36,930 nucleotides of DNA, taken from positions 1-36,930 of the forward strand of contig DASYTI010000007.1 of the NCBI GenBank assembly GCA_036002485.1. The letters are read 5' to 3'. The stretch's first letter is position 1, and every line of letters begins with the position of its first letter. Shown here in pieces: positions 4,531 to 36,806 of the stretch. The translations under genes were made by a program, and so were the position numbers. The notes beneath the pieces are model-generated. The model did not search any database and was not told the DNA's origin. It saw only the letters and a program-made list of their open reading frames with translations. The DNA is from Candidatus Methylomirabilota bacterium. GTDB lineage: Bacteria > Methylomirabilota > Methylomirabilia > Rokubacteriales > CSP1-6.

Positions 4531-4553
4531 GTCCCGTCACCGCCGACGCTGCC

Positions 4554-4584
4554 TCGCTGCCCTCGGACCGCCCGGGGGCAGCGA
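4554..4584 (+). terminator. Hairpin after the transglutaminase gene
   Basis: TCGCTGCCC (4554-4562) pairs perfectly with GGGCAGCGA (4576-4584) around a 13-nt loop, 23 bp after the stop codon. The following CATTTAAG holds only a short T run, so it is a weak intrinsic terminator candidate. Confidence 0.45.
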
Positions 4585-4618
4585 CATTTAAGCCGGCCTT
4601 CCGGGGCGGGGGGCGCGC

Positions 4619-4647
4619 TTGACACTCGCGTCGGCCCGCCTTAGGTT
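4619..4647 (+). promoter_or_regulatory. Sigma-70-like promoter of the sugar-type ABC importer
   Basis: A perfect -35 TTGACA (4619-4624) is followed after 17 bp by TAGGTT (4642-4647), about 107 bp upstream of the first permease gene. The rest of the gap 4531-4754 holds only the hairpin listed above. Confidence 0.55.
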
Positions 4648-4754
4648 GAGCCTCGGTTGGTGCCGGGATTCGGGGAGGCGCAACGGGCGCCCCGTCCGAC
4701 ATCGGTAGCCCCATCGCCCGACGGAAGAGAGGGCCGAGCGGCCGTCTCTCTCCG

Positions 4755-13251: not shown

Positions 13252-13261
13252 GAAGTGCCGT

Positions 13262-15339: not shown

Positions 15340-15397
15340 CCGTTTCCCCTCCCCCGTTCGGATTGGTCTTCGGGGCCGAATCACCCGAGGTGAGCAG

Positions 15398-15413
15398 AGC
15401 AAGGCCTGTGCCT
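15398..15413 (-). promoter_or_regulatory. Sigma-54 (-24/-12) promoter of the cyn operon
   Basis: On the minus strand the sequence AGGCAC, five bases, TTGCT runs from 15413 to 15398. It matches the consensus TGGCAC-N5-TTGCW except for the first base and has the exact GG-N10-GC spacing (GG at 15412-15411, GC at 15400-15399). The predicted transcript start near 15387 leaves a leader of about 48 nt that includes the cynA ribosome site. Nitrogen (NtrC-type) control is inferred. Confidence 0.7.
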
Positions 15414-20216: not shown

Positions 20217-21932
20217 CTAGAAGAGGTAATAGCGCTGGGCCATGGGCAGCACCCGCGCGGGCTCACAGGTCAGGAGCTCGCCGTCGGCGCGCACCTCGTA
20301 GGTCTCCGGATCCACCTCGATGCGCGGGCAATAGGCATTGTTGACCATGTCGGCCTTGCTCAGCCCGCGGCAGCCCCTCGCCGCGGAGATCATCTTGCGC
20401 AGGCCGAGGCGCGTGGGCACCCCGTCCTCGAGCGCGGCCTTCGACACGAAGGTCATCGACGTGGAGTACACCGCCCCGCCGTAGGAGGCGAACATGGGCC
20501 GGTAGCGGACGGGCTGGGGAGTGGGGATGGAGGCATTGGGGTCGCCCATGGCCGCAGTGACGATGAGGCCGCTCTTCAGCACGAGCTCCGGCTTCACCCC
20601 GAAAAAGGCGGGCTTCCAGATCACGAGATCGGCGAGCTTGCCCGCCTCGATCGAGCCGACCTCGTGCGAGATCCCGTGGGAGATGGCGGGATTGATCGTG
20701 TACTTGGCCACGTACCGCTTGGCGCGCGCATTGTCGTTCCGCCCGTCGCCCGGGAGAGCGCCGCGCTGGCGCTTCATCTTGTCCGCCGTCTGCCAGGTGC
20801 GCGTGATGACTTCCGCGATGCGGCCCATGGCTTGGGAGTCCGACGAGAGCATGCTGATGGCGCCCAGGTCGTGGAGCACGTCCTCCGCCGCGATCGTCTC
20901 GGCACGGATGCGCGACTCGGCAAAGGCCAGGTCCTCGGGAATCTTCGGGTTCAGGTGATGGCAGACCATGAGCATGTCGAGATGCTCGTCCATGGTGTTG
21001 ACGGTGAACGGCATGGTGGGATTCGTGGAGGAGGGCAGGCAGTTCGGCTCGCCGCAGACGCGAATGATGTCGGGGGCATGGCCGCCGCCCGCGCCCTCGG
21101 TGTGATAGGTGTGGATGGTCCGGTTCTTGAACGCCTTGATCGAGTCCTCGACGAAGCCCGCCTCGTTGAGAGTGTCCGTGTGGATGGCGACCTGCACGTC
21201 CATCTCCTCGGCGACGGACAGGCAGGCGTCGATGGCCGCCGGGGTCGTCCCCCAGTCCTCGTGGAGCTTGAGGCCGATGGCGCCGGCGGCCACCTGCTCG
21301 CGCAAGGGATCCAGTCGGGAAGCGTTGCCTTTCCCCAGAAAACCCAGATTGATGGGCAGACCATCCGAGGCCTCGAGCATGCGGTGGATGTTCCACGCGC
21401 CCGCCGAGCAGGTCGTGGCATTGGTGCCGGTGGCGGGGCCGGTGCCCCCGCCGATGAGCGTGGTCAGTCCCGCCGAGAGGGCCTCGTCGACGAGCTGCGG
21501 GCAGATGAAGTGGATATGTGAATCGATGCCGCCGGCCGTGACGATGCGTCCCTCCCCCGCGATGACCTCGGTGGAGGCCCCCACGATCATGCCCGCGGTA
21601 ACACCCGCCTGGATGTCGGGATTCCCGGCCTTGCCCACGCCCACGATACGGCCGCCGCGCACGCCGATATCGGCCTTGACGATGCCCCAGTGATCGAGCA
21701 CGAGGGCATTGGTGATCACGAGGTCGAGGACGCCCTCGGCGGCGGTGGCGCGGGCGGACTGTCCCATACCGTCGCGGATCACCTTGCCGCCTCCGAACTT
21801 GACCTCGTCGCCGTAGACGGTGAAGTCGCGCTCGACCTCGATGAGGATCTCGGTATCGGCCAGCCGGACCCGGTCGCCGACCGTGGGGCCGTAGAGATCG
21901 GCATACTGGCGGCGCGGCAGCCTCAGGCTCAT
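20217..21932 (-). CDS. ureC: Urease alpha (catalytic) subunit UreC
   Basis: UreC hydrolyses urea to ammonia and carbamate at a di-nickel centre in the cytoplasm. The 571-residue length is normal. All active-site residues are in place, offset by five from Klebsiella numbering: His139 and His141 ([11 protein letters not shown]), the carbamylated Lys222 ([12 protein letters not shown]), His224, His251, His277 ([11 protein letters not shown]), the flap His325 (MVCHHL) and Asp365 (SSDSQAMGR). The enzyme should therefore be active. It lies 4 bp after ureB and is followed by the accessory genes. Separate ureA, ureB and ureC genes are the common bacterial arrangement. Confidence 0.97.
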
Positions 21933-21936
21933 GTCA

Positions 21937-22302
21937 TCACGCTCCCTGGAATCCGGCTTGCGCGGCCTTCTTCACCGCCGCTTCCCGCCGCGCGTCATCC
22001 ACCTTGCCGTCGGCGAGCGCGTTCAAGCCATGGACCTCTCGCGCCCCCGCCAGCTCGACGAGAGTCACGATCTTCTCGTCGCCGGGCTCGAAGCGCACCG
22101 CGGTGCCCGCGGGAATATTGAGCCTCATGCCCCACGCCTTGCCTCGTTCGAATCTGAGCGCGCGATTGGCCTCGAAGAAGTGGAAGTGTGAACCAACCTG
22201 AATGGGCCGGTCGGCCGTATTGGCTACCGTCAGCTGGACGGTCCGGCGCCCTTCATTCGCGACGATATCGCCCTCGCCCAGGATGTATTCGCCCGGAATC
22301 AC
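21937..22302 (-). CDS. ureB: Urease beta subunit UreB
   Basis: UreB is a structural subunit of the (UreABC)3 urease, 121 residues here. The typical beginning [18 protein letters not shown], the core [16 protein letters not shown] and [16 protein letters not shown] are present. The C-terminal tail ([20 protein letters not shown]) is slightly longer than in many homologues, which is common. The start is a GTG at 22302. It begins 94 bp after ureA; this gap contains a strong hairpin. It is 4 bp upstream of ureC. Confidence 0.95.
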
Positions 22303-22340
22303 TTCGCAGCCTCCCTCGGTTGACCGCCGTCTGGGGGAGT

Positions 22341-22365
22341 GCGGGGGCCATCTCTGGGCCCCCGC
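22341..22365. other. Intercistronic hairpin between ureA and ureB
   Basis: GCGGGGGCC (22341-22349) and GGCCCCCGC (22357-22365) form a perfect 9-bp GC stem with a 7-nt loop, within the only sizeable gap between urtA and atzG. No T run follows, so it looks more like an RNA-processing or stabilising element than a terminator. Confidence 0.55.
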
Positions 22366-22396
22366 TGATAAATCGATGAACGAGGCCCGTGTCCAC

Positions 22397-22699
22397 TCAT
22401 CGGATTGGGTGATGTATGGTCACGAGCTTGGTGCCGTCGGGGAAAGTGCCCTCGACCTGCACCTCCTCGAGCATCTCGGGCACGCCGTCCATGACATCGC
22501 CGCGATTGAGAATGGTGATGCCGAAGGCCATGAGGTCTGAGACGCTCCGGCCATCGCGGATGCCCTCCAGGACCTCGGCGGTGATCAGGGCCAGGGCCTC
22601 TGGATAGTTCAGCTTGAGCCCCCGCCCCCGCCGCCGGCGGGCGACTTCCGCCGCGGTGAAGATCAGCAGCTTGTCCTGCTCTCGGGGGGTCAGGTGCAT
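22397..22699 (-). CDS. ureA: Urease gamma subunit UreA
   Basis: UreA is the smallest structural subunit of urease, exactly the common 100 residues. The sequence begins [20 protein letters not shown] and has the family segments [31 protein letters not shown] and [19 protein letters not shown]. It starts 19 bp after the urea-transporter ATPase gene urtE, so uptake and hydrolysis of urea share one transcript. An unusual 94-bp spacer with a hairpin separates it from ureB. Confidence 0.96.
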
Positions 22700-22718: not shown

Positions 22719-23429
22719 TCAGACGGTCAAGTGCTGTCTCACCACGTCATGGCGCAGCTCCGCCGTCGAGCCCCTCGAGACGATGGCGCCCTTGCGCATG
22801 ATGGCGTAGGAGTTGGCGAGCCGCCAGGCGAACTCGAGATATTGCTCGACGAGGAGGACGGCGATGCCCCGCTCCTTGATGCGCCCGATGGCATCCTCGA
22901 TCTGGAGGATGACATTGGGCTGTATGCCTTCGGTCGGTTCGTCCATGAGGAGGAGCTTGGGGCGCGCCAGGAGCACGCGCGCGATGGCCAGCTGCTGCTG
23001 CTCACCGCCCGAGAGCACGCCGCCCTTGCGGGACAGGAGCTGCTTGAGCCGGGGGAAAAGACCGAAAACGCCCTCGTAGTCCCCGGGCGCGCCTCGAGCA
23101 CTGTCCACGGACGAGGGGCGGCCGAGGAGGCCGACCCGGAGGTTCTCCGCCACGCTCAGATTGGGGAAGATCTCGCGCCCCTGGGGGACATAGCCGATGC
23201 CGCGGGCCGCGCGCTCTTCGGGGCGCAAGCCGCCCAGTTCGGCGCCGTCGAACGTGATGCGGCCCGCCCGCGTGGGCAGGAGCCCCATGATCGATTTGAG
23301 CAGGGTGGTCTTGCCCACGCCGTTGCGTCCCATGAGACAGACGACGCCGGCGTCCGGCACCTGGAGCGAGACGTCCCAGAGCACCTGGCTCTCGCCATAC
23401 GCGACGTCGAGGCCCTGAATCTCAAGCAT
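22719..23429 (-). CDS. urtE: Urea ABC transporter ATPase UrtE
   Basis: This 236-residue ATPase is of the LivF/UrtE type. Walker A is GRNGVGKTT, the signature is [15 protein letters not shown], and Walker B is [13 protein letters not shown], the last being typical of UrtE. The segment [15 protein letters not shown] and the conserved [15 protein letters not shown] support the call. The start ATG overlaps the urtD stop by 8 bp. It is the fifth gene of urtABCDE, and ureA follows 19 bp later. It pairs with UrtD to power urea uptake. Confidence 0.93.
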
Positions 23430-24201
23430 CGGCTTCGCGGCTCCGGCCGAGATAGACCTCCATCACCCTGTCGTCCTTCTGCACCTGCTCCACGGGCCCT
23501 TCGCAGAGGATGCTGCCCTCGTGGAGCACGGTCACCTTGCGCGCGATGCTGCGCACGAACTCCATGTCGTGCTCGATCACCAGCACCGCGCGCTCCGCGG
23601 CCACTCCCTGGAGGAGGCGGCCGGTCTTCTCGGTCTCCTCCTCGGTCATGCCGGCCACGGGCTCGTCGACGAGAAGCAGCTCGGCGTCCTGGACCATGAC
23701 CATGCCGATCTCGAGCCATTGCTTCTGTCCGTGGGACAGCCCCCCCGCCCGCACATCGGCCTCGGCCGCGAGGCCAATCGTCTCGAGCGTGAGACTCACG
23801 CGCTCCTGTTGCTCCCCCGTCAGCCTCGATCGCAACGTCGCCAGCACGCCCTTGCTGGCCCGGGCCAGCGCGAGCTCGAGGTTCTCCCGCACCGTCAGGT
23901 TGGCGAAGATGGACGGCGTCTGGAACTTGCGCCCCACGCCGAGCGAGGCGATCTCGTTCTCGCGCCGGCCCGCGAGGTCGGTGCTGTGGCCGAAGATCAC
24001 GCGACCCGCCGTGGGCTGGACCTTGCCCGAGATGACGTCGAGCAGCGTGGTCTTGCCTGCCCCGTTCGGCCCGATGACGACCCGCAGCTCCTTGTAGTCC
24101 ATGAAGAAGTTGAGCCCATTGAGGGCCTTGAAACCGTCGTACTCGACGGTGACATCCTCGAGGTAGATGATGGAGCCGCCTGGCGAGGCATTCATGGTCA
24201 T
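23422..24201 (-). CDS. urtD: Urea ABC transporter ATPase UrtD
   Basis: This 259-residue ATPase is of the LivG/UrtD type, with Walker A GPNGAGKTT, the signature LSHGQKQWLEIGMVMVQ and Walker B LLLVDEPVAGMTEEET. The signature LSHGQKQWLEIG and the following GMTEEET are characteristic of UrtD and not of amino-acid LivG proteins. The early region has ITVEYDGFKALN-like sequence (EDVTVEYDGFKALNGLNF). It starts at an ATG 10 bp after urtC. It functions as a heterodimer with UrtE. Confidence 0.93.
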   Translation of the reverse strand: MTMNASPGGSIIYLEDVTVEYDGFKALNGLNFFMDYKELRVVIGPNGAGKTTLLDVISGKVQPTAGRVIFGHSTDLAGRRENEIASLGVGRKFQTPSIFANLTVRENLELALARASKGVLATLRSRLTGEQQERVSLTLETIGLAAEADVRAGGLSHGQKQWLEIGMVMVQDAELLLVDEPVAGMTEEETEKTGRLLQGVAAERAVLVIEHDMEFVRSIARKVTVLHEGSILCEGPVEQVQKDDRVMEVYLGRSREADA

Positions 24202-24211
24202 GGTCGCGGCC

Positions 24212-25345
24212 TCATCGGGGGGTCAGCTCCACCGTCTTGGCCGGCTCGCTGGCCGCCGGCACATGCTCGGGGGACTTGACGCGATCGAAGCGCGCCATCA
24301 GCTTTTGCGCGGTGCCGACCACGCCGTCCGGGAAGAAGAGGACGACGGTCACGAACATCCCGCCCAGCACGAGGATCCAGAGATCCGGGTAGTGCGTGGT
24401 CAACAGGCTCTGGAGCCAGTTGACGCCGAAGGCCCCCACCACGGGCCCGATGAGAGTCCCCCGCCCGCCCACAGCGACCCAGATGATCATCTCGATGGAG
24501 GGGAGGACGCCGATGCGGGCGGGCGTGATGATGCCGACCTGCCCGACGTAGAGCGCCCCCGCCAACCCGGCCAGCACCGCCGAGACCGTGAACACGAACA
24601 TCTTGAAGGCGGCCGGCGAGTAGCCGCAGAAGAGCACGCGCGTCTCGCTGTCGCGGATGGCCACCAGCACCTTCCCGGCGGGGGAGCGCACGATCCACCG
24701 GCAGAGCAGATAGGCCGCGCAGAGAAAGAGCGCGGTGACGATGTAGAGACCGCGCTGGGTGCCCGGCGAATTGAGAGGGAAGCCGAACATCGTCTTGAAG
24801 CCGCTGAGCCCGTTGGTTCCTCCGAGGTTCATGGCATTGCGGTTGAAGGTGAGCCAGGCGCAGAGAGCAAGGGCCTGAGTGATGATGGAAAAATACACGC
24901 CGCGGATGCGGCTTCGAAAGGTGAGGAACCCGAACACGGCGGCGAAGAGCCCGGGCACGAGAACCACGGCGAGAAGCGTGAACCACGCGCTGTAGAACGG
25001 TTTCCAGAAGAGGGGAAGCTCCGTCACCCGGTTCCACACCATGAAGTCCGGGAGCACGTTCTGGTAGACGCCTTTGGCCCCGATCTCGAGCATGAGGTGC
25101 ATGCCCATGGCATAGGCGCCCAGGCCGAAGAAGACGCCATGGCCGAGAGAGAGGACGCCCGCGTAGCCCCAGATGAGGTCGATGCCGAGAGCGAGGATGG
25201 CATAGGTCAGAAATTTGCCGAAGAGATTGAGGGTGAAATCCGAGACGCGGAGCGGTGAGCCCGCGGGGAGCGCGTTCAGGACGGGCAGCACCACGACGAG
25301 GAGGGCGGCCACGGCGAGAAAGGCCCAGCGCTCACGAGTCCGCAT
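24212..25345 (-). CDS. urtC: Urea ABC transporter permease UrtC
   Basis: This 377-residue inner-membrane permease is of the LivM type, with about nine hydrophobic segments. Family sequences include IDLIWGYAGVLSLGHGVFFGLGAYAMGMHL, FNRNAMNLGGTNGLSGF, and AVGGRGTLIGPVVGA near the end. GLSGF following GGTNG is typical of UrtC, where the LivM group reads GLTGG or similar. Its ATG lies 14 bp inside the end of urtB, so the permeases are translationally coupled. A C-terminal tail of about 35 polar residues extends into the cytoplasm. Confidence 0.92.
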   Translation of the reverse strand: MRTRERWAFLAVAALLVVVLPVLNALPAGSPLRVSDFTLNLFGKFLTYAILALGIDLIWGYAGVLSLGHGVFFGLGAYAMGMHLMLEIGAKGVYQNVLPDFMVWNRVTELPLFWKPFYSAWFTLLAVVLVPGLFAAVFGFLTFRSRIRGVYFSIITQALALCAWLTFNRNAMNLGGTNGLSGFKTMFGFPLNSPGTQRGLYIVTALFLCAAYLLCRWIVRSPAGKVLVAIRDSETRVLFCGYSPAAFKMFVFTVSAVLAGLAGALYVGQVGIITPARIGVLPSIEMIIWVAVGGRGTLIGPVVGAFGVNWLQSLLTTHYPDLWILVLGGMFVTVVLFFPDGVVGTAQKLMARFDRVKSPEHVPAASEPAKTVELTPR

Positions 25346-27020
25346 AGCGTCCCTTCGCCGCGAAGAGCCCGGAGGGGCGCCGCTGGATGAACAGGATCAC
25401 GAGGACCAGGATGGCCACCTTGCCGAAGACGGCGCCGAGGCCCGGCTCGATGATCTTGTTGAGGCCGCCGATCCCCACGGCGGCCAGGATGGTGCCGAGC
25501 AGCTTGCCCACGCCGCCCGTGACCACGACCATGAACGAATCCACGATGTAGTTCTGACCCAGCTCCGGCCCCACGTTGCCGATCTGGGTCAGCGCGCAGC
25601 CCGCCAGCCCGGCCAGGCCGGCGCCCAGGGCGAAGGTCAGGGCGTCCACGCGTCGCGAGCGAACCCCGAGACAGGCGGCCATGTCCCGATTCTGCGTCAC
25701 CGCGCGGACGCGCAGTCCGGCGTCGGTACGGAAGAGCAAGAAGTACATGGCGGCGACGGCCGCGGTGGCCAGCCCGATGATGAAGAGACGGTTGTAGGGC
25801 AGCACGACGCCAATCATGACCGGAATGCCGCCGGAAAGCCACTTGGGCGAGAGCACGTCCACGTTCGCCGCGCCGAACCAGAGCCGGAGCCCCTGCTGGA
25901 TCATCAAGCTCACGCCCCAGGTCAAGAGAAGCGTCTCGAGCGGTCGCCCGTAGAGGAAGCGGATGACGCCGCGCTCCAGCGCGAAGCCGGCCACGCCCGC
26001 CACGAGGAATGACAAGGGCAGCGAGACGAGGAAGTAGTACTCGAGGGATCCCGCGGCATGGTCCTGGAACCAGGTCTGGGTTACGTAGGTCGTGTAGGCG
26101 CCCAGGGCCATGAGCTCGCCGTGGGCCATGTTGATGACGCCCATGAGCCCGAACACGATGGCCAGCCCGAGGGCCATGAGGAGCAGGATGGAGGAGAGGG
26201 ACAGGCCCTGGAAGAGGATCTGCATGGTCTGGGTCAAGAGGGCCCAGCGCTCGATGCGCTTGACGGCATCGTCCGCCGCCCCGCGGAGCTGATCGGACGC
26301 GGCCGTGTCCTTGGCCACGTCCCGAAGGCGGTCGATGGCGTCCTGGCTGCCCAGCGTGCCGAGGGTGGCCGCGGCCCTCGTGCGCTCGACCTCGGACCCT
26401 GACTTGAGCTGGACGAGGGCGATGGCCTCCTGGAGGGCGTAGCGAACCCAGCGGTCCTTCTCCTTGGCCAGAGCTTCCGCGAGGGCGGGCAGCGCCCCCG
26501 GGTCACCCGCATTGCCCATCTTGACCGCGGCACCCTGCCGCACCGTCCAGTCAGGGTCCGCGAGCTGCGATTGCCCGGAGAATGCGTCGATGAGGGGCCG
26601 GATGGCCATGCGGAGACTCCGGCCGGTGGAGACCTCCTCGAGCGTGGTCAGCTCGACGAGGAGCGGTTTGCCATCCGGCGCGAGCATAGGCTCGCGGCCA
26701 TAGGCGGAGAAGATCGGGACAAGAGTCTTGTCGCCTTCATTGACCTTGTCGCCGACGATCACCGTCTCTTTCTTGCCTCCGGGAAGCGGGCGGACATAGA
26801 CGCTGCCTTCGCGGAGGGCCTCGAGGAGCGGGAGGATCTTGCGGTCGCCCGTCTTGCCGAGCGCGACGGCCGCCGCCTCCTGGACCGCGGCGTCGCTCGA
26901 GGCGACCTCGGCGATGGCCTTGACGGTTTCGGGCGGCGGCCCTGAGGCAGCGCCCTGCGCTGCTGCCGGGGCGGTGAGCCCCGGCAGCAGCGCGAGCGCC
27001 AACAGCAGGCGAATGATCAC
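25332..27020 (-). CDS. urtB: Urea ABC transporter permease UrtB with N-terminal HEAT-like domain
   Basis: This 562-residue protein has a signal-like segment (residues 1-21, ending AAAQG) and a periplasmic domain of about 230 residues built of HEAT-like helical repeats (AAVALGKTGDRKILPLLEAL; VKMGNAGDPGALPALAEAL; AATLGTLGSQDAIDRL). The LivH-type permease core follows (MALGLAIVFGLMGVINMAHGELMALGAY and the final VILFIQRRPSGLFA). Such N-terminal extensions are known in UrtB and help distinguish it from branched-chain amino-acid permeases. I chose the GTG at 27020, 8 bp after the urtA stop, because it starts exactly at the signal segment; the open frame further upstream overlaps urtA and is spurious. 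Confidence 0.92.
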   Translation of the reverse strand: MIIRLLLALALLPGLTAPAAAQGAASGPPPETVKAIAEVASSDAAVQEAAAVALGKTGDRKILPLLEALREGSVYVRPLPGGKKETVIVGDKVNEGDKTLVPIFSAYGREPMLAPDGKPLLVELTTLEEVSTGRSLRMAIRPLIDAFSGQSQLADPDWTVRQGAAVKMGNAGDPGALPALAEALAKEKDRWVRYALQEAIALVQLKSGSEVERTRAAATLGTLGSQDAIDRLRDVAKDTAASDQLRGAADDAVKRIERWALLTQTMQILFQGLSLSSILLLMALGLAIVFGLMGVINMAHGELMALGAYTTYVTQTWFQDHAAGSLEYYFLVSLPLSFLVAGVAGFALERGVIRFLYGRPLETLLLTWGVSLMIQQGLRLWFGAANVDVLSPKWLSGGIPVMIGVVLPYNRLFIIGLATAAVAAMYFLLFRTDAGLRVRAVTQNRDMAACLGVRSRRVDALTFALGAGLAGLAGCALTQIGNVGPELGQNYIVDSFMVVVTGGVGKLLGTILAAVGIGGLNKIIEPGLGAVFGKVAILVLVILFIQRRPSGLFAAKGRYADS

Positions 27021-27028
27021 GTGCGTGG

Positions 27029-28327
27029 CTAGGCCTTCTTCTGGTACGTGCCCTTTTCCTTGACCCAGTCGCAGCCCTTGTCCGGGCTCGTGTACTTGCT
27101 CCACGGCTCGGCCCTGACCAGACCCTTCGAGCGCGAGACGACCTTGAACTGCCCGTCCTTGAGGATCTCGCCGATGAGCACCGGCTTGTAGGTGTGGTGG
27201 TTGGCCTCGTCCATCTTGATCTGGCCGCCCGGGGCCAGGAACGTCTGGCCGTAGACGGCCTTGCGGACCGCGTCCACCTCGAACGACTTGGCCTTCTCCG
27301 CGGCCTGCTTCCAGACGTAGACGCCGAAGTAGGCGGCTTCCATCGGGTCGTCGGTGACGCGCTTGTCACCGCCGGGCAGGTTGTTCTTCTTGGCGTAGGC
27401 CTTGAAGGCCTGGACGAACTTCTTGTTCTGCGGCGTGTCCACCACCTGGTAATAGTTCCAGGCGGCGAGATGGCCGACGAGGGCGGAGGTGTCCATGCCG
27501 CGCAGCTCGTCCTCGGCCACGGAAAAGGCCATGATGGGCGCGTTCTCCGAGCGGAGACCCTGGTTGGCGAACTCCTTGTAGAAGGGGACGTTGCTGTCGC
27601 CGTTGATGGTCGAGAGCACGGCGGCGCTGCCCCCGGAGGCGAAGCGCTTGATCTTGCCCACGATGGTCTGATAGTCCTGGTGATTGAACGGCGTGTACTC
27701 CTCGGCGATATTGTCCGCGGGCACGCCCTTGGCGAGCAGGAACGCGCGCAGGATCTTGTTGGCCGTGCGCGGGAACACGTAGTCGGTGCCCAGCAGGTAG
27801 AACTTCTTGTAGCCGCCGCCTTCCTTGGACATCATGTACTCGGCGGCGGGGATGAGCTGCTGGTTGGGCGTGGCGCCCGTGTAGAAGACGTTCTTCGAGC
27901 ACTCCTCGCCCTCGTACTGCACGGGATAGAAGAGCAGGCCGTTGTTGTTCTCGAACACGGGCAGCACGGACTTGCGGCTCACGGACGTCCAGCAGCCGAA
28001 GACCACGGCCACCTTGTCCTGGAGCAGGAGCTGCTTGGCCTTCTCCGCGAAGAGGTCCCAGTTCGACGCGGGGTCGACCACCACCGGCTCGATCTTCTTC
28101 CCCATCACTCCGCCCTTGGCGTTGATCTCGTCGAACGCCATCATGCACACGTCGCGGAGTGAGACCTCGCTGATGGCCATGGTGCCCGAGAGCGAGTGGA
28201 GCACGCCTACCTTGACAGTCCCGCCGCCCTGCGCACGCAGCACGGCGGGAAAGCCGAGCCCCGCCGCCGCGCCGACGCCGGCCGCCGCTGTCCCCTTCAG
28301 AAAGTCCCTGCGTGAGAATCCTTGCAT
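27029..28327 (-). CDS. urtA: Urea ABC transporter substrate-binding protein UrtA
   Basis: This 432-residue periplasmic urea-binding protein is of the LivK/AmiC superfamily. A twin-arginine signal is visible (FSRRDFLKGTAAAGVG, cleavage near VLRAQGG). Mature landmarks include VKVGVLHSLSGTMAISEVSLRD, VVFGCWTSVSRKSVLPVFE, LLFYPVQYEGEECSKNVFYTGATPNQQ and GQTFLAPGGQIKMDEANHHTYK, which are characteristic of urea/short-chain amide binders. The ATG at 28327 has an AAGGAG site. It opens the urtABCDE-ureABCEFGD-atzGEH series. AmiC, the amide sensor that holds back AmiR, belongs to the same fold; here an AmiR-like gene lies directly upstream. Confidence 0.94.
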   Translation of the reverse strand: MQGFSRRDFLKGTAAAGVGAAAGLGFPAVLRAQGGGTVKVGVLHSLSGTMAISEVSLRDVCMMAFDEINAKGGVMGKKIEPVVVDPASNWDLFAEKAKQLLLQDKVAVVFGCWTSVSRKSVLPVFENNNGLLFYPVQYEGEECSKNVFYTGATPNQQLIPAAEYMMSKEGGGYKKFYLLGTDYVFPRTANKILRAFLLAKGVPADNIAEEYTPFNHQDYQTIVGKIKRFASGGSAAVLSTINGDSNVPFYKEFANQGLRSENAPIMAFSVAEDELRGMDTSALVGHLAAWNYYQVVDTPQNKKFVQAFKAYAKKNNLPGGDKRVTDDPMEAAYFGVYVWKQAAEKAKSFEVDAVRKAVYGQTFLAPGGQIKMDEANHHTYKPVLIGEILKDGQFKVVSRSKGLVRAEPWSKYTSPDKGCDWVKEKGTYQKKA

Positions 28328-28445
28328 GCCCGTCTCCTTCTGACTTCGGGGTGAGAGTGGTGGGCCCTCCGTCGGGCCAGTGATCTGGGGGCAGAACCGG
28401 CGCTCGGCCTCAGACCCCGCTGTCTCGGCGCGCCGCCCTCGGGGG

Positions 28446-28461
28446 AGCAAGCCCCATGCCC
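28446..28461 (-). promoter_or_regulatory. Sigma-54 (-24/-12) promoter candidate of the urt-ure-atz series
   Basis: On the minus strand GGGCAT, five bases, TTGCT runs from 28461 to 28446 and has the exact GG-N10-GC spacing (GG at 28460-28459, GC at 28448-28447). One base of the TGGCAC-type half differs from TGGCAY. The predicted transcript start near 28435 gives a leader of about 108 nt. The gap also holds the terminator at 28515-28551; a 5-bp stem with a GACGGA loop (28363-28378) lies in the leader. Confidence 0.6.
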
Positions 28462-28514: not shown

Positions 28515-28551
28515 AAAGGGCCGCTGCCTAGTTGGTAGGCAGCGGCCCTTT
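28515..28551 (-). terminator. Perfect 16-bp hairpin terminator after the ANTAR regulator gene
   Basis: AAAGGGCCGCTGCCTA (28515-28530) is the exact reverse complement of 28536-28551, with a 5-nt loop. On the minus strand the stem ends in TTT and is followed by AAGTTTTCTC, a T-rich tail. It lies 22 bp after the stop codon of the regulator gene and upstream of the urtA promoter, so it separates the two transcripts. It is among the strongest structural elements in the window. Confidence 0.85.
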
Positions 28552-28573: not shown

Positions 28574-29179
28574 CTATCGCGTGGTGCGGAGCGGCCCCAT
28601 CGTATTGGCCAAGAGGAGAGCCTGAGCGACCTCGGCCATGGTCTTGCGGGTATCCATGGCCGTCTTCTGGATTCGTCGAAAGGCCTCGGGCTCGGTCAGT
28701 CCCATGCGTGTCATCAGGATGCCTTTGGCCCTGTCCACCAGCTTGCGCGACTCGAGCTTTTGCTTGAGGGCCTCGTTCTCCTTGCGTACCGCTTCCAGCT
28801 CACGGAAGCGCGAGACGGCGACGTCAAGCGCGGGCGCCAGCTCCTCCGGCCTCAGCGGCTTGACCAGGAAACCGAGCACGCCCGCCTCGACGGCGCCCGC
28901 GGTGATATCGGGATTCGTGTGGCTCGTGAGCAGCACGATCGGACACGGCAAGGCCGCCATCACGCGACGGGCCGCTTCCACGCCATCGCCGTCGGGCAGG
29001 CCGACAGCGAGCAGCAAGACGTCGGGGCGATGCTTGTCGACGAGGCGCACGGCGTCCTCGACGCGACTGCCATTGCCGACCACGGTGCCCCCCTGGGCGC
29101 CGATGGCCTCGGCCACGGCCGCCCGGGAGGGAGCATGATCATCCACGATCAGGACTCTCCAGCGCGTAGTCGTCTTCAT
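28574..29179 (-). CDS. AmiR/NasT-like ANTAR antitermination regulator with a non-phosphorylatable receiver
   Basis: This 201-residue protein has a receiver-like domain (about 8-125), a coiled-coil linker (FRELEAVRKENEALKQKLES, about 135-155) and a C-terminal ANTAR RNA-binding domain (LVDRAKGILMTRMGLTEPEAFRRIQ). ANTAR proteins bind leader-RNA hairpins and prevent termination. The acidic pair Asp13-Asp14, Thr85 and Lys107 of a receiver are kept, but the phospho-acceptor position is Ala58 (LLLAVGLPDGDG; codon GCT at 29006-29008). Phosphorylation is therefore not expected, as in AmiR, which is controlled by a partner protein. No AmiC- or NasS-like cytoplasmic sensor gene adjoins it. I used the ATG at 29179; an upstream in-frame GTG at 29209 is the alternative. 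It lies just upstream of the urt series. Confidence 0.88.
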   Translation of the reverse strand: MKTTTRWRVLIVDDHAPSRAAVAEAIGAQGGTVVGNGSRVEDAVRLVDKHRPDVLLLAVGLPDGDGVEAARRVMAALPCPIVLLTSHTNPDITAGAVEAGVLGFLVKPLRPEELAPALDVAVSRFRELEAVRKENEALKQKLESRKLVDRAKGILMTRMGLTEPEAFRRIQKTAMDTRKTMAEVAQALLLANTMGPLRTTR

Positions 29180-29809: not shown

Positions 29810-31051
29810 ATGGTCAGGATTGTCACCGCCGTGTGCTGTCTCGCGCTTCTCGGCGCCGCGGGAGGAGTCCGCGCTCAGGAGCGCCTGGCCGCGCTCACGC
29901 TCGAGCAGGCGCTACGGCTGGCCAGCGAGACCAATCCGAACGTGCGCGCCAAGGAATTCGAGCTCAAGGCCGTCGGGGCCAACGAGATCACGGCCGGGCT
30001 TAGGCCGAATCCGACCGCGAACTTCCTCGCCGAGCAATTCGCGGGCGGCTCCTCCGCATCCCAGACGCAGTACACCATCAACATTGGTCAGCCCATCGAG
30101 CTCGGCGGCAAGCGTCAGCGCCGTGTCGACAGCGCCACCGCTCAGACGAAGGTCACCTCCCACCAGCTCGCCGATCTCAGAAGGCAGATCGACTTCCAGG
30201 TCAAGAAAACCTTCACGGACATCCTGGTGGCCCGGGACTCGGTAAGCCTGGCCGAGCAAAACCTGGCGGCCCTCGACGACCTCGAAAAGGTCCAGCGCCT
30301 TCGGGCCGACAAGGGGGACCTTTCCGGCCTCGAGCTGCTCAGGATCCAGGTCCAGCGGTACAGCCTGGAGCGGGATGCCGCCGACGCCCGACAGGCGCTG
30401 AAAGCAGGCAAGATCGCGCTCCGCGCCCTGGTGGGGCCCGACAAGGTCGTCGAAGACTTCGACGTCACGGGCGCTCTCGACTATCGCCAAGCATCTTTCA
30501 CCCAGTCCGAGCTCTACCGGCGGGCCCTCGACGCCCGGCCGGACGTCCGGGCGGCCGAGGCGGCTCGCGACAAGGCCAGGGCGGACATCAATCTGGCCAA
30601 GGCCAATGCGTGGTGGGACATCACCCCTCAGGTCGAGTACCAGCGCATCGGCCCCGACAACACGATCGGCTTCGGAGTCGGCCTGCCTGTCCGGATTTTC
30701 GATCGCAATCAGGGCGAGATCGCCCGCACCCGGGCGGACGCCCTGCGGGTCGACGCCGTGCGGGATGCCGTCGCCGTGCAGGCCCTCTCGGAGGTGGATA
30801 CCGCTCTCGCCGCCGTCCAGACCGAGCGGGGCAAGGTGCTGGCCCTGCGCGATACCTACTTGCCGAAGGCGACCCAGGCGCGCGACACCGTGGAGTTCGC
30901 CTACCGGCGAGGAGGCGTGAACCTGCTCGACTATATCGATGCCCAGCGCACGTATCGGGAAACCGCCCTGGAGTACGTACGTGCGCTGGGCAACTACCGG
31001 ACGGCCATCCACCTGCTCGAAGCCGCCGTGGGCGGCTCTTTGAGGGACTAG
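29810..31051 (+). CDS. czcC: Outer-membrane efflux protein, CzcC/TolC family
   Basis: This 413-residue outer-membrane channel of a tripartite efflux pump has a signal peptide at residues 1-22 (ending GVRAQ). Two OEP repeats follow: LTLEQALRLASETNPNVRAKEF at the start of the first, and LYRRALDARPDVRAAEAARDKARADI in the second. The C-terminal family motif is FAYRRGGVNLLDYIDAQRTYRET. CzcC-type proteins have this FxxGxxxLLDYLDAQRTY ending. It is followed one base later by the membrane-fusion gene, so the czcC-czcB-czcA order is the classical one. The ATG at 29810 has a GAGGGA site. Confidence 0.88.
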   Translation: MVRIVTAVCCLALLGAAGGVRAQERLAALTLEQALRLASETNPNVRAKEFELKAVGANEITAGLRPNPTANFLAEQFAGGSSASQTQYTINIGQPIELGGKRQRRVDSATAQTKVTSHQLADLRRQIDFQVKKTFTDILVARDSVSLAEQNLAALDDLEKVQRLRADKGDLSGLELLRIQVQRYSLERDAADARQALKAGKIALRALVGPDKVVEDFDVTGALDYRQASFTQSELYRRALDARPDVRAAEAARDKARADINLAKANAWWDITPQVEYQRIGPDNTIGFGVGLPVRIFDRNQGEIARTRADALRVDAVRDAVAVQALSEVDTALAAVQTERGKVLALRDTYLPKATQARDTVEFAYRRGGVNLLDYIDAQRTYRETALEYVRALGNYRTAIHLLEAAVGGSLRD

Positions 31052-31052
31052 A

Positions 31053-32168
31053 ATGCGGATCGCCCTCGTCATCCTCCTCGTCACCACCTTGGCCGCTGGA
31101 TGCAAGGACGCCAAGTCCGCCCCGCCCGGCTCCGCTCCATCTCCGGCGGCCACCGCGGGGAGCCCCGTCAAGATCGTCATGCCCGAGCATCGCATGCGCA
31201 CCGCCCTCCTCGAGACGACGGGCAAGGTCCAGTTCAACGAGGAGCAGCTCGTGCGCGTCAACGCGCCCGTGACCGGGCGCGTACTGGAGGTGCTCGCCCG
31301 CCCGGGCGAAGCCGTCGAGCTCGGCCACCGCCTCTTCATCCTCGACAGCCCGGATCTCGGCCAGGCCAAGAGCGACTATGCCAAGGCCGTTTCCGATCTC
31401 CAGCGGTCCGAGAAGGCCATCAAGCTCGCCCGCGAGCTCTTCGAGATGAAGGCCACCGCGGAGAAGGACCTGCGCGACGCGGAGAACGAGTACAACAAGG
31501 CCGTGGCCGAGCGAGACCGCGCGGCCTCTCGCCTCCGGGCCCTCGGGGTGAAGCCCGAGCAGCTCAGGGATATCGGGGCCCGGGCGGACGCCTCCACCGC
31601 CATCACGGTGACGGCCCCCCGCGGCGGGATCGTCGTGGAGCGGAATATCAGTCCCGGGCAAGTGGTGGCCTATGGGCAGTCCGACACGCCCGTGAGTCTC
31701 TTCGTCATCGCCAATCTCTCCACGATGTGGATACTCGCCGATGTCTACGAGCCCGATGTGCCCAGGGTGCGGCTGGGGCAGACCGTTCGCATCACCCTCC
31801 CCTGCTGTCCCCGGGAAAGCTACGAAGGCAAGGTCACCAATATCGGCGCCGCCATCGACAAGGAAAGTCGGACGCTCAAGATCAGGGCCGTGGTCCCGAG
31901 TGCCCGCGGCAGCCTCAAGGCCGAGATGTTCGTCAAGGCCGCCATCGAAACGGGTGCCTCGCAGATTCTGACCCTGCCCCAGAGTGCCATCCAGCGCCAA
32001 GACGGGCAGACCTTCGTGCTGCTCGAGAAGGGACAGGGTGAATACGCGCGGCGAGCCGTCAAGACGGGCGCCGAGTTCGACGGCGTGGTCGAAGTCCTCG
32101 AGGGGGTGACGCCCGAGGATCGCGTGGTCAGCACCGGGGGTGTCCTCCTCAAGCGCGACGCGCAATGA
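31053..32168 (+). CDS. czcB: Efflux RND periplasmic adaptor (CzcB-like lipoprotein)
   Basis: This 371-residue membrane-fusion protein links CzcA to the outer-membrane channel. It has a short lipoprotein signal (LVTTLAAGCKD, Cys about residue 17). A barrel-sandwich half-motif is visible (VNAPVTGRVLEVLARPGEAVELGHRLF), then a helical hairpin with ALFEMKATAEKDLRDAENEYNKAVAERD-like sequence. The second half-motif reads VTAPRGGIVVERNISPGQVV, and DVYEPDVPRVRLGQTVRITLPC follows. The absence of the long N-terminal histidine-rich region of some CzcB proteins means that its metal cannot be read. The stop overlaps the czcA ATG by 4 bp. Confidence 0.9.
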   Translation: MRIALVILLVTTLAAGCKDAKSAPPGSAPSPAATAGSPVKIVMPEHRMRTALLETTGKVQFNEEQLVRVNAPVTGRVLEVLARPGEAVELGHRLFILDSPDLGQAKSDYAKAVSDLQRSEKAIKLARELFEMKATAEKDLRDAENEYNKAVAERDRAASRLRALGVKPEQLRDIGARADASTAITVTAPRGGIVVERNISPGQVVAYGQSDTPVSLFVIANLSTMWILADVYEPDVPRVRLGQTVRITLPCCPRESYEGKVTNIGAAIDKESRTLKIRAVVPSARGSLKAEMFVKAAIETGASQILTLPQSAIQRQDGQTFVLLEKGQGEYARRAVKTGAEFDGVVEVLEGVTPEDRVVSTGGVLLKRDAQ

Positions 32169-35100
32169 TCGAACGCCTCGTCGCCTTCGCCCTCCGCCAG
32201 CGCTTCATCGTCCTGTCGCTGGCCCTTCTCTTGACCGTCATGGGCGTGACGTCCTTTCACGGACTTCCCATCGAGGCCTATCCCGATGTGGGCGACGTCC
32301 GCGCGGAAATCATCACGCTGTGGCCGGGACACGCTGCCGAAGAAGTCGAGCGACTCATCACCATTCCGCTCGAGAACGAGCTCAACGGGATCGCTCGCGT
32401 GACCGTCATCCGCTCGGACACGCTCTTCGGCCTGTCGAATATCCGCGTCGTCTTCGCCGACGGAACGGACGACTACTGGGCCCGGCAGCAGGCCCAGGAG
32501 CGGATTGCTCAGGCCCAGCTCCCCGCCGACGCCAAGCCGGGTCTCGGTCCGATGTCGAGCGTCATCGGCGAGGTGTATCGCTACACCCTCGAGTCCAAGA
32601 CCATGTCACTGGTCGAGCTCAAAGCCCTCCAGGACTGGGTGCTGGAGCGCGAGTTCCGTCAGGTTCCGGGCGTGGCCGACGTCGTCTCCTGGGGCGGGGG
32701 GACCAAGCAGTACGAGATCATCGTGGATCCCGCGCGTCTCCGCGCCTACAACCTCACCCTCAAACAGGTGCTGGACGCGGCGGCCAGCTCCAACTCCAAC
32801 TCCGGAGGCGGCTACATCGCCCAGGGCGAGTACCGCGTGACCGTACGTGGACTCGGTCTCCTGCGGTCCATCGCCGACATCGAGAACATCGTGGTCAGCG
32901 CCCAGAAGGGCACCCCGGTGCGGGTCCGCGACATCGGGACGGTCGGCGTGGGCATCGCGATCCGGCTGGGTGTCCTGGGCCGCGATCACGACGACGATCT
33001 GGTCCAGGGCATCGTGCTCATGCGCAAGGGGGAGAACCCGGATGCCGTGATCCAGGGGGTGGCCCGGAAGATCGAAACGCTCAAGAAGACGCTCCCCGCC
33101 GGCGTCGAGCTGCGGGACTACTACAGCCGCGATCGGCTCGTGCGGACCACGGTGCGGACGGTCATGCGCAACCTCATCGAGGGTGCGGCCCTCGTCGTCG
33201 TCCTCCTCTCCCTCTTCCTCTACAACATTCGGGCCGCCCTCATCGTCGCCGTCACCATTCCCCTTTCCCTGCTCTTCGCCTTCATCTTCATGGATCTGCG
33301 TGGCATCCCCGCGAACCTGCTCTCCCTGGGCGCCATCGACTTCGGCATCATCGTCGACGGCGCGGTGATCATGACGGAGAACATCCTCCGCCATCTCGCC
33401 GAGCAGAAGCCGGACGGCCGCCGAGTGGTCCGCGAGGTCCAGCACGCGGCGGTGGAAGTGGCGCGCCCCCTCACCTTCGCCGTACTCATCATCATGACGG
33501 TGTACGTGCCGATCCTCACCTTCCAGCGCATCGAGGGCAAGCTCTTCCGCCCCATGGCCATCACCATCTCGCTCGCGGTCATCGGCGCTCTCATCCTCAC
33601 CCTGACCCTGATTCCCGTGCTGTGCAGTTACCTCTTCAAGCTCCCCCCCTCGGATCGCGAGAGCCCGCTCCTGGCCGTCCTGCGGCGGCCCTACCTGCCC
33701 GCCATTCGCTGGTGCGTGCGCCGGCCCCTCGTGCCCATCCTGGGCGCCGCGCTCCTCCTCGCGGTTTCTCTGTCGACGTTCACGCTCCTCGGAAAGGAAT
33801 TCCTCCCCGAGCTCGATGAGGGCGACCTCTGGCTGCGTGTCCAGTTCCCCGTGGGAGTGTCGATCGAAGGCGTGCGGCCGTACGTGCGGGAGATCCGCGA
33901 GCGGCTCCTCCGATTCCCGGAAGTGCGGGTCGTCGTCTCACAGCTCGGCGCTCCGGACGACGGCACCGATCCCGAGGCCCCCGACAACGCGGAGTTCTAC
34001 GTCGGCCTCAAGCCTCGCGAGGAGTGGCCAAATCCGGACAAGGAGCGTCTGGTGACGGCGATGACCGCGGCGCTGGCGAACATACCTGGCGTCAGCACGA
34101 ACTTCTCCCAGCCCATCAAGGACAACGTCGACGAGGCTCTGGCGGGGGTGAAGGGTGAGCTCGCCATCAAGCTCTACGGCCCCGACATCTTCGTGATGGA
34201 CGGAGTGGCCAAGCAGATCGCCGCCGTTCTCAAGGACATCCGTGGCGTCGCGGATCTCGACTATGACCACTGCACCGGACAACCCCAGCTTCAGGTGGTC
34301 ATCGACCGCGCCGCCGCCGCCCGGCACGGCATCAATGTCCAGGACATCCAGGACACCATCGAGGCAACCAGCAAGGGCCGCGCCGTCACCGAGATCTTCG
34401 AGGAGGAGCGGCGCTTCAACCTGGTCGTCAAGCTGGGTCAGGCCGGCGAGCCCGGAGCGCGGCTTCGCCAGGTGGCGGTCAGCGCCCCGAGCGGGGAGCG
34501 CATTCCCTTGAGCCAGCTCGCCGAGTTCCTCCGGACCGACGGGCTCGCGGAGATCTTCCGCGAGAACAATGTCCGGCGCCTGTCCATCAAGTGGAGCGTG
34601 CGGGAGCGCGACATGGGCGGTCTCGTGGCCGAAGCCATGCAGAAGGTGGAGGCGGCCGTGACCCTGCCGCCGGGTTACCGGATGGTATGGAGCGGCCGCT
34701 TCGAGGATCAGCAGCGCGCCCTCGGCCGCCTCTACGTCATCGTGCCTCTCGTCATCTTCATCATCTTCGTCCTGCTCTTCGGCGCGTTCAACTCGACGGG
34801 CGACGCACTCCTGATCATGCTCAACCTTCCCTTCGCGTTGATCGGCGGCACCCTGGCTCTCTTCTTCTGGCAGAGCAACTTCAATATCTCGGCCGCCGTC
34901 GGCTACATCGCCGTGTTCGGCGTCAGTGTGCTGAACGGCACCGTCCTCGTCTCCTCCATCCGCCATGCCTACGCCGACGGCCTCCCCCTGCGCGAGGCCA
35001 TCGTCCGGGGCTGCGAGATCCGCTTCAGGCCCATCATGGTCTCGGCCATCGTGGCCATCATCGGCTTTCTGCCCGCCGCTCTCAGCCAGGGTATCGGGGC

Positions 35101-35257
35101 CGAGATCCAGAAGCCACTCGCGCGTGTGGTGATCGGCGGACTCATCTCCTCGACGGCCCTGACCTTGCTCGTACTACCTGCCGTCTATGCTCTGTTCGCC
35201 GCCCGGGACGAGAATCGCGACGGCGCGGCCCGGCCGCCCGGCGAGAAGAACACGTAG
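32165..35257 (+). CDS. czcA: Heavy-metal efflux RND transporter (CzcA/HME family)
   Basis: This is a 1,030-residue proton-driven pump with twelve membrane helices and two large periplasmic domains. The N-terminal pattern IERLVAFALRQRFIVL and PIEAYPDVGDV is that of HME-RND pumps. The functional signature in helix 4 reads DFGIIVDGAVIMTEN, with Asp392, Asp398 and Glu405 corresponding to the proton/cation residues of divalent-metal exporters (CzcA group). This favours Co/Zn/Cd or Ni over Cu/Ag. YDHCTGQPQLQ, GLAEIFRENNVRRLSIKW and the C-terminal LVLPAVYALFA are also typical. It closes the czcCBA unit; no metal-sensing regulator is adjacent. Confidence 0.93.
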   Translation: MIERLVAFALRQRFIVLSLALLLTVMGVTSFHGLPIEAYPDVGDVRAEIITLWPGHAAEEVERLITIPLENELNGIARVTVIRSDTLFGLSNIRVVFADGTDDYWARQQAQERIAQAQLPADAKPGLGPMSSVIGEVYRYTLESKTMSLVELKALQDWVLEREFRQVPGVADVVSWGGGTKQYEIIVDPARLRAYNLTLKQVLDAAASSNSNSGGGYIAQGEYRVTVRGLGLLRSIADIENIVVSAQKGTPVRVRDIGTVGVGIAIRLGVLGRDHDDDLVQGIVLMRKGENPDAVIQGVARKIETLKKTLPAGVELRDYYSRDRLVRTTVRTVMRNLIEGAALVVVLLSLFLYNIRAALIVAVTIPLSLLFAFIFMDLRGIPANLLSLGAIDFGIIVDGAVIMTENILRHLAEQKPDGRRVVREVQHAAVEVARPLTFAVLIIMTVYVPILTFQRIEGKLFRPMAITISLAVIGALILTLTLIPVLCSYLFKLPPSDRESPLLAVLRRPYLPAIRWCVRRPLVPILGAALLLAVSLSTFTLLGKEFLPELDEGDLWLRVQFPVGVSIEGVRPYVREIRERLLRFPEVRVVVSQLGAPDDGTDPEAPDNAEFYVGLKPREEWPNPDKERLVTAMTAALANIPGVSTNFSQPIKDNVDEALAGVKGELAIKLYGPDIFVMDGVAKQIAAVLKDIRGVADLDYDHCTGQPQLQVVIDRAAAARHGINVQDIQDTIEATSKGRAVTEIFEEERRFNLVVKLGQAGEPGARLRQVAVSAPSGERIPLSQLAEFLRTDGLAEIFRENNVRRLSIKWSVRERDMGGLVAEAMQKVEAAVTLPPGYRMVWSGRFEDQQRALGRLYVIVPLVIFIIFVLLFGAFNSTGDALLIMLNLPFALIGGTLALFFWQSNFNISAAVGYIAVFGVSVLNGTVLVSSIRHAYADGLPLREAIVRGCEIRFRPIMVSAIVAIIGFLPAALSQGIGAEIQKPLARVVIGGLISSTALTLLVLPAVYALFAARDENRDGAARPPGEKNT

Positions 35258-35381: not shown

Positions 35382-36806
35382 CTAGATGTCGTAGTACAGC
35401 GCGAACTCGTACGGATGCGGCCGCAGGCGGACGGGATCCACCTCGTTCTTCCGCTTGTAGTCGATCCACGTCTCGATGAGATCCGGCGTGAAGACGTCGC
35501 CCTTGAGCAGGAAGTCGTGGTTCTTCTCGAGATTGTCCAGCACGATGTCCAGCGCCCCCGGAAGCTGCTTGATCTTCTTCTGCTCGGCGGGCGGCAGCTC
35601 GTAGAGATCCTTGTCCACGGGCTTGCCGGGATCGATCTTGTTGGCCACGCCGTCCAGACCGGCCATCACGCATGCCGCAAACGAGAGGTACGGATTGCAG
35701 GTCGGGTCCGGCGTCCGGAACTCGATGCGCTTGGCTCCCTCCGCCTTCGAGTACATGGGAATGCGAATGGCCGCCGACCGGTTCCGCTGGCTGTACACCA
35801 GGTTGATGGGGGCCTCGTAGCCCGGCACCAGCCGCTTGTAGCTATTCGTGCTGGGGGCGATGAAGGCGAGGAGGGCGGGGGCGTGCTTGAGGATGCCGCC
35901 GATGTAGTAGAGGCACGTCTTCGAGATGTCGGCGTACCCACCCCGCTCGTAGAAAAGGTTCTTGCCGTTCTTCCAGATCGACTGGTGGGTGTGCATGCCC
36001 GAACCATTGTCCTGAAAGAGCGGCTTGGGCATGAAGGTGGCCGTCTTGCCCCATTTCTTGGCCGTGTTCTTGGCGCAGTACTTGTACCAGCAGACCTTGT
36101 CGGCCATCTTGGTCAGCGTGTCGTAGCGCATGTCGATCTCGGTCTGCCCGCCCGTGGCCACCTCGTGGTGATGCACCTCGATCCGGACGCCGACCGATTC
36201 GAGGGCGAGCACCATATCGGAGCGAATGTCCTGGAACTTGTCCATGGGCGGCACGGGGAAATAGCCCTGCTTGTAGCGCGGCTTGTAGCCGAGGTTCGGC
36301 CGGTCCGGCGTGCCCTCGAGGCCCGTGTTCCAGGCGCCGGCCTCGGAGTCGATGAAGTAGTAGCCGCAGTTGTACGTCTGGTCGAAGCGAATGGAGTCGA
36401 AGAAGAAGAACTCGAGCTCGGGTCCGATGTAGATCGTGTCTCCGACGCCCGACTTCTTCACGTAGGCCTCGGCCTTCTGGGCAACGTAGCGGGGATCGCG
36501 CGTGTACGCCTTCCCCGTGATCGGGTCCTTGACATTGCAGATGAGGACCATGGTGGGCACCGCGGTGAACGGGTCCATCTGCGCCGTCGAGGCATCGGGC
36601 ATGAGCAGCATGTCCGACTCGTCGATGGTCTGAAAGCCGCGGATCGACGAGCCGTCGAAGCCCAGGCCGTCTGCGAAGATGCCCTCGTTCAGCTCGGAGA
36701 CCGGGATCGAGAAGTGCTGCCAGAGGCCGGGGAGATCGATGAAGCGCAGATCGATGATCTTGACGCCCTTCTCCTTGGCCATTTTCAACACGTCCTTCGG
36801 GGTCAT
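35382..36806 (-). CDS. glnA: Glutamine synthetase type I (GSI-beta)
   Basis: GlnA joins ammonia to glutamate with ATP and is the entry point for the ammonia produced by urease and cyanase. The 474-residue protein has the N-terminal domain (IIDLRFIDLPGLWQHFSIP), GLGFDGSSIRGF, and the active-site segments GPELEFFFFD, HHHEVATGGQTEID and NGSGMHTHQSIWK. The ATP-binding Lys-region sequence KRLVPGYEAPINLVYSQRNRSA is present. The adenylylation site is Tyr402 (DKDLYELPPAE), so control by GlnE is likely and the enzyme is of the GSI-beta class. A strong AAAGGAGG site precedes the ATG at 36806. No sigma-54 promoter is visible in the 120 bp upstream. Confidence 0.96.
   Translation of the reverse strand: MTPKDVLKMAKEKGVKIIDLRFIDLPGLWQHFSIPVSELNEGIFADGLGFDGSSIRGFQTIDESDMLLMPDASTAQMDPFTAVPTMVLICNVKDPITGKAYTRDPRYVAQKAEAYVKKSGVGDTIYIGPELEFFFFDSIRFDQTYNCGYYFIDSEAGAWNTGLEGTPDRPNLGYKPRYKQGYFPVPPMDKFQDIRSDMVLALESVGVRIEVHHHEVATGGQTEIDMRYDTLTKMADKVCWYKYCAKNTAKKWGKTATFMPKPLFQDNGSGMHTHQSIWKNGKNLFYERGGYADISKTCLYYIGGILKHAPALLAFIAPSTNSYKRLVPGYEAPINLVYSQRNRSAAIRIPMYSKAEGAKRIEFRTPDPTCNPYLSFAACVMAGLDGVANKIDPGKPVDKDLYELPPAEQKKIKQLPGALDIVLDNLEKNHDFLLKGDVFTPDLIETWIDYKRKNEVDPVRLRPHPYEFALYYDI

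Follow-up and report, generated by a model that had tools for sequence, protein, structure and literature searches.

The locus described here raises the question of how an ANTAR regulator works, and on which genes, when alanine stands at the place of the phospho-acceptor aspartate of its receiver domain. Pfam places a receiver (Response_reg) at residues 9-117 of the protein (E = 2.4e-20) and an ANTAR domain at residues 136-189 (E = 1.2e-23 to 2.7e-23), the latter with a score of 81.9 bits against a curated PF03861 cut-off of 27.3, and a PF03861 search finds the gene to be the single ANTAR gene of the 4.45 Mb source genome. D13, D14, T85 and K107 are retained and residue 58 is Ala (GCT), which agrees with the initial annotation, where Ala58, the acidic pair, Thr85 and Lys107 had been read from the translation. 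The AF2 model (pLDDT 91.7) predicts the receiver fold with high confidence, and the absence of the acceptor Asp from it places the protein among the pseudo-receiver ANTAR proteins, which are a recognised class (PMC3369931, PMC7496416). We consider it fairly probable that this ANTAR protein regulates nitrogen acquisition independently of phosphorylation, that it acts on 5' leaders and that it has kept its receiver as a pseudo-receiver. The features of the window, by which we mean the whole stretch of 36,930 nucleotides analysed, a complete contig, are collected in Table 1.

Table 1. Features of the window relevant to the regulator and its surroundings
Feature	Positions	Strand	Basis and details
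ANTAR regulator, receiver-like domain, Ala at phospho-acceptor place	28574..29179	-	201 aa, P0001; translation, PF00072 + PF03861
Receiver-like domain, aa 8-119	28823..29158	-	PF00072, E 2.4e-20; alignment; D13, D14, T85, K107 kept
Codon 58, GCT = Ala replacing phospho-acceptor Asp	29006..29008	-	Sequence; invariant in 27 orthologues
ANTAR RNA-binding domain, aa 136-189	28613..28774	-	PF03861
Strong inverted repeat GGGCCGCTGCCTACCAACTAGGCAGCGGCCC past regulator gene	28518..28548	-	Leader alignment, position
Sigma-54-type promoter GGGCATGGGGCTTGC of urtA	28447..28461	-	Pattern match; RpoN encoded
Conserved 5' structure of urtA leader; P1 lies within its outer stem CGGCGC...GCGCCG	28398..28435	-	Block in the window and L032-L035
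Candidate hairpin P1, agac[AGCGGG]gtct; A1 and G4 in the hexaloop, C:G closing pair	28412..28425	-	Tentative
Candidate hairpin P2, ggccc[GACGGA]gggcc; G1 and G4 in the loop	28363..28378	-	Tentative
urtA, urea-binding protein, Tat-type signal	27029..28327	-	TIGR03407 above cut-off, TAT_signal_seq, PF13433
urtB, permease	25332..27023	-	BPD_transp_2
urtC, permease	24212..25345	-	BPD_transp_2
urtD, ATPase	23422..24201	-	ABC_tran
urtE, ATPase	22719..23429	-	TIGR03410 above cut-off
Urease block	20217..22699	-	ureA 22397-22699, ureB 21937-22302, ureC 20217-21932; urease gamma, beta, alpha
glnA, glutamine synthetase	35382..36806	-	PF00120/PF03951; order in L033-L036

The best matches to the regulator were extracted from 60 related genomes. 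The alignment of homologues proposed in the initial annotation gives Ala58 in 38/38 orthologous (A-type) loci of the class, from 94% down to 42% identity, and column 58 is invariant Ala among 27 aligned orthologues; aspartate in all close relatives, which had been named as the sign of a sequencing error or a recent mutation, is thus not what these loci carry. The Ala58 codons of the 38 loci are GCG (20), GCC (16), GCT (1) and GCA (1), and since all four alanine codons are in use Ala58 has persisted through many synonymous changes. A sequencing error, a recent mutation or a decaying gene, suggested by the single base that separates GAT from GCT, has a negligible probability in the face of 38 Ala loci, four codons and conservation of the remaining protein, and the first two of these are ruled out at codon 58 by the loci and codons.

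When column 58 is left out, a single branch of the maximum-likelihood tree (76 proteins, branch support 100/100) separates the Ala proteins from the rest. Asp58 is found in 78 of the 80 best relatives from GTDB genomes, the two Ala58 proteins being of the same phylum (labelled Rokuibacteriota and Methylomirabilota, by which the source genome is placed in Methylomirabilota); as the comparison covers the best 80 relatives, it leaves room for Ala in more distant ANTAR families. As judged from the tree, the switch from Asp to Ala58 has one origin, early in the evolution of this bacterial group, and the receiver domain would have lost phosphorylation long ago and been retained as a pseudo-receiver. 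Between 39 Ala and 81 Asp proteins the cleanest switched sites are D58A, K60G, M61L, A86S, F109L, I18S and M25A, of which 58 (acceptor), 60 (acceptor+2), 86 (Thr+1) and 109 (Lys+2) are pocket positions, while K107, D14 and T/S85 are unchanged. This joint change around constant residues resembles remodelling under selection and not decay, and the pocket of the Ala58 proteins looks as if it had been so remodelled. The receiver is eroded in a few Ala58 copies (L186, L193). The copy in L186 (G006:C162, approximately 4413-4952) is a second, diverged Ala58 ANTAR gene with a strongly eroded receiver and an ntrC-type gene near it.

With a real and conserved Ala58, control by Asp phosphorylation is unlikely, and the regulator should escape it, in line with the earlier proposal that it works without phosphorylation. 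A search of all loci, limited to kinases of the HisKA_2 type, found none near the regulator in 38 Ala58 loci (0/38), so that both the acceptor and such a kinase, by which a two-component response regulator is recognised, are absent. The Asp58 paralogues of the class (L069-L071, L185) come after a GAF/HisKA_2 histidine kinase, and these kinase-linked proteins are a matched control by which the substitute role of the pseudo-receiver becomes directly testable. Phosphorylation at another place, on D63, D65 or a Ser/Thr, by an orphan kinase might be considered, as Asp63 and Asp65 of the GLPDGDG motif are close to the pocket, Thr and Lys are retained along with the acidic pair, and other histidine kinases are present (e.g. 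at 7979-9799 of the window). We regard it as very improbable, since D63 is variable among the Ala58 proteins (GQ in L067/L068, PG in L065), no HisKA_2-type kinase is linked in the 38 loci, and alternative phospho-acceptors are rare in known receivers.

The genes around the regulator point to nitrogen, which agrees with the tie to urea drawn in the initial annotation from urtA; the glnA gene of the window had not been used there. The usual order in the family of the window is ntrC - glnK - amtB - glnA - regulator - urtABCDE - ureABC, with amtB or glnA upstream in 22/25 Ala58 loci with enough sequence and urtA downstream in 20/35. In the window the ATG of urtA is at 28327, 246 nt past the regulator stop, and the product has a Tat-type signal, so that the earlier description of an exported UrtA encoded directly downstream holds. 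The order is broken here by an operon for RND efflux of heavy-metal type on the opposite strand (29810-35257, +; OEP, HlyD_D23, ACR_tran), which lies between glnA and the regulator. Efflux genes are also found at this place in the nearest relative (L032), and in the close relatives L033-L036 glutamine synthetase is the direct upstream neighbour of the regulator; the efflux operon is probably a recent insertion into the nitrogen operon. In the source genome, which encodes RpoN, a separate contig carries glnK-amtB, with an ntrC-like gene next to it.

Some further observations concern the same surroundings. UrtB carries HEAT repeats (PF13646, PF03130) ahead of its permease domain. A match to the Rfam family 5_ureB_sRNA (RF02514) above the gathering score lies at 21484-21777 (+), antisense to the start of ureC, with further matches in L039, L040, L042 and L064, and could be due to the conserved coding strand, with no real sRNA behind it. 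Genes for a Tat-exported NMT1_2 binding protein, then a permease and an ATPase, are found at 12397-15402 (-) and 15955-17337 (-), with an amidase gene upstream, and this region is likely a second uptake system of the window for nitrogen compounds.

If the regulator binds RNA, its targets should be sought in the stretch after its own gene. The published ANTAR target consists of two hairpins with hexaloops having A at position 1 and G at position 4 (PMC3369931), and 38 leaders after the Ala58 gene were scanned for pairs of such hairpins with a loop spacing of 20-26 nt. A strong A1/G4 pair was found in 12/38 leaders against a mean of 0.075 and a maximum of 1 in dinucleotide shuffles; as the scoring rule was set after some of the leaders had been viewed, fairer controls are given by any other loop-letter rule, which finds 0 or 1 of the same leaders, and by windows elsewhere in the same loci, where an A1/G4 pair occurs in 4/1392. 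The two hairpins are each closed by a C:G pair in 13/13, the closing pair that was selected in vitro for NasR (PMC7496416). With a relaxed rule, in which loop position 1 may also be G and the spacing may reach 50 nt, pairs are found in 23/41 leaders against 1.1, while the canonical pair is unrecognisable in about half of the Ala58 loci. Covariation in the hairpins is weak and is reached by shuffles too, because the short stems vary little.

A covariance model searched in 40 genomes gave six strong matches, all of them urtA leaders; part of the RNA evidence had gone into building the model, and only the match in G014, where urtA and the regulator gene are on separate contigs and the leader lay outside the model-building set, is independent of it. 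The weak matches (G001, G002, G003, G007, G016, G022) fall within coding regions or are no better than chance. An intrinsic terminator overlaps with the second hairpin in four loci (L037, L038, L067, L068), which is the classical layout; the leader precedes a nitrite/sulphite reductase gene in L037 and urtA in L038. The T-run is absent from most urtA leaders. The leaders of the two amtB loci, examined for further targets in the source genome, held no convincing hairpin pair, the match in L195 being within coding sequence, and no Rfam family covering the leaders was found. In another family of the class, f5 (L043, L050, L051, L055, L061), two conserved hairpins with the loops GCTGTK/GCCGTT and AACGRT, 34-36 nt apart, follow an Ala58 regulator and stand before a gene for a DUF2231 membrane protein.

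The urtA leader of the window itself is less clear. A sigma-54-type promoter precedes it, and the strict pattern GGYAYN5TTGC is present in 17 of 41 leaders, where shuffles give 0.1. Transcripts from sigma-54 promoters start approximately 12 nt past the GC element, and the start is here predicted near 28435, where the conserved stem begins. The inverted repeat lies approximately 60-100 bp upstream of the promoter; its core CTGCCTACC(A/G)A(C/G)TAGGCAG is kept in four relatives (L032-L035) and its T-run is not, and of the two roles considered, terminator or activator site, it is perhaps an enhancer for an activator rather than a terminator. The P2 of L035, gaccc[AACGAC]gggtc, shows a paired stem change. 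For the P1/P2 pair of the window, 9% of shuffles do at least as well (1-1.5% for L033/L034), its leader scores 8.3 bits under the covariance model, which is noise, and the model found no match at E <= 1 in the source genome. We therefore treat the pair tentatively, as a degenerate or diverged candidate that is not significant.

Taken together, Ala58 since an early time, neighbours for ammonium and urea uptake and paired hairpins in the leaders of many relatives suggest that nitrogen uptake is probably tuned at the level of RNA by a signal other than phosphate. The regulator would act on the 5' leader belonging to the next operon after its gene, which in the window is urtABCDE-urease. Transcription of urt would be initiated from the sigma-54-type promoter, and the mRNA should accordingly be made under nitrogen limitation; in relatives its start folds into two hexaloop hairpins, which an ANTAR dimer would hold. 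That the regulator binds these leaders is suggested by their proximity and by its being the sole ANTAR protein of the genome. Where P2 overlaps the terminator (L037, L038, L067, L068), binding would prevent termination; in the leaders lacking a terminator, which include most Rokubacterial urtA leaders, it more likely alters access to the urtA ribosome-binding site. RNA folding of the leaders with and without P1/P2 disagreed between loci: in L039, L063 and L044 the ribosome-binding site, otherwise paired with P1, becomes free when P1/P2 are held, and in L040, L045 and L057 the outcome is the opposite, no such release being seen. Folding thus gave no uniform ribosome-site switch. The conserved Ala58, its single origin, the switched pocket, the neighbours and, in relatives, the RNA elements and promoters come directly from the computations; RNA binding, the direction of control, the input and the continued working of the degenerate leader of the window are inferred.

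The input would be something other than Asp phosphorylation, and the likeliest is contact with the co-encoded GlnK/PII or glutamine synthetase, or the level of the protein itself. The level alone would suffice if the Ala58 receiver were locked, so that the protein bound RNA constitutively and, free of any partner, was controlled only by its amount under NtrC/sigma-54. Unphosphorylated EutV still binds RNA, though more weakly (PMC3369931, PMC7496416), the setting is a nitrogen operon with an ntrC-like gene near, and some copies (L186, L193) have eroded receivers; however, nearly all orthologues keep a full receiver, in which D13 and K107 are among the invariant columns, which is unexpected for a passive dimer arm, and we regard such a constitutive binder as possible yet doubtful. 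It is tempting to speculate that PII (GlnK) or glutamine synthetase directly binds the Ala58 pseudo-receiver, so that nitrogen status controls an RNA-binding antiterminator with no phosphate involved; this specific form of contact is rather unlikely as it stands, and if true it would be a class-wide and so far undescribed link between PII signalling and riboregulation for urea uptake.

The initial annotation had favoured a partner of the AmiC type that senses urea or amides. In this reading, taken somewhat wider, a cytoplasmic substrate-binding protein (AmiC/NasS/UrtA-like) would sense urea, amides or nitrate and hold the pseudo-receiver. The overall fold of AmiR matches the regulator (TM 0.7), control through a substrate-binding-like partner has a precedent in NasS-NasT (PMC3795266), the source genome encodes many Peripla_BP_5 proteins and the window an NMT1_2 protein. 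The constant neighbours are nevertheless amtB, glnK and glnA, and the sole constant neighbour gene for a protein of the substrate-binding kind is urtA, whose product is exported. The source genome was searched with PF13433 and PF13379, and the leaderless partner that had been suggested was not seen among the proteins whose leaders were inspected, chiefly UrtA and the two strong NMT1_2 proteins, both of the latter having Tat-like leaders. We consider a substrate-binding partner improbable, and PII, glutamine synthetase or protein level likelier inputs.

ANTAR control of genes for PII, ammonium and urea transporters has already been predicted in other bacteria (PMC3369931, PMC7496416). What is new here is the class-wide switch of single origin from Asp to Ala in a pocket that is retained, together with the link of the regulator to glnK-amtB-glnA-urt and with the leaders predicted for it. 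Our literature search found no paper on an Ala58 ANTAR switch and no study of such regulation in Methylomirabilota, including Rokubacteria. In the Ala58 proteins a phosphorylation switch was replaced, with a single origin, within an otherwise intact receiver, and for Methylomirabilota, including Rokubacteria, predicted RNA targets and nitrogen-sensing neighbours are supplied.

In comparison with known systems, the likeness to AmiR that had been drawn for this protein is the more distant one. The best solved fold matches are, in order, EutV with RNA (6ww6), EutV (6wsh), Rv1626 and AmiR, and by sequence Rv1626 (E = 1e-43) and EutV (E = 1e-27), both phosphorylatable, are far closer than AmiR (E = 1e-8, only over residues 73-189); the pocket residues are kept. 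EutV of Enterococcus faecalis, a two-component ANTAR antiterminator, is the best fold match and shares the dual-hairpin RNA with A1/G4 hexaloops found in the leaders of the relatives. It has a phospho-acceptor Asp and the kinase EutW, whereas neither the Asp nor a linked kinase was found for the Ala58 proteins, and many Ala58 leaders lack a terminator. Rv1626/PdtaR of Mycobacterium, the nearest solved relative by sequence, has a phosphorylatable receiver and the partner kinase PdtaS, and its target set differs from that of the Ala58 regulators; in Actinobacteria, ANTAR RNAs frequently work at the ribosome-binding site (PMC8164766). Geobacter GnfR is an ANTAR regulator of ammonium assimilation and is phosphorylated by GnfK, which is not expected of the Ala58 regulators. 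The clostridial NitR, a glnA-linked antiterminator, is likewise an ANTAR regulator of ammonium assimilation (PMC4676874). In AmiR-AmiC and NasT-NasS a receiver-like domain is under the control of protein contact and nitrogen genes are regulated (PMC3369931, PMC3795266), but their sensors are ligand-binding proteins, none of which is linked to the Ala58 regulator. In contrast to AmiR and NasT, the pocket of the Ala58 proteins is switched but mostly retained, and their neighbours are PII, Amt and GlnA.
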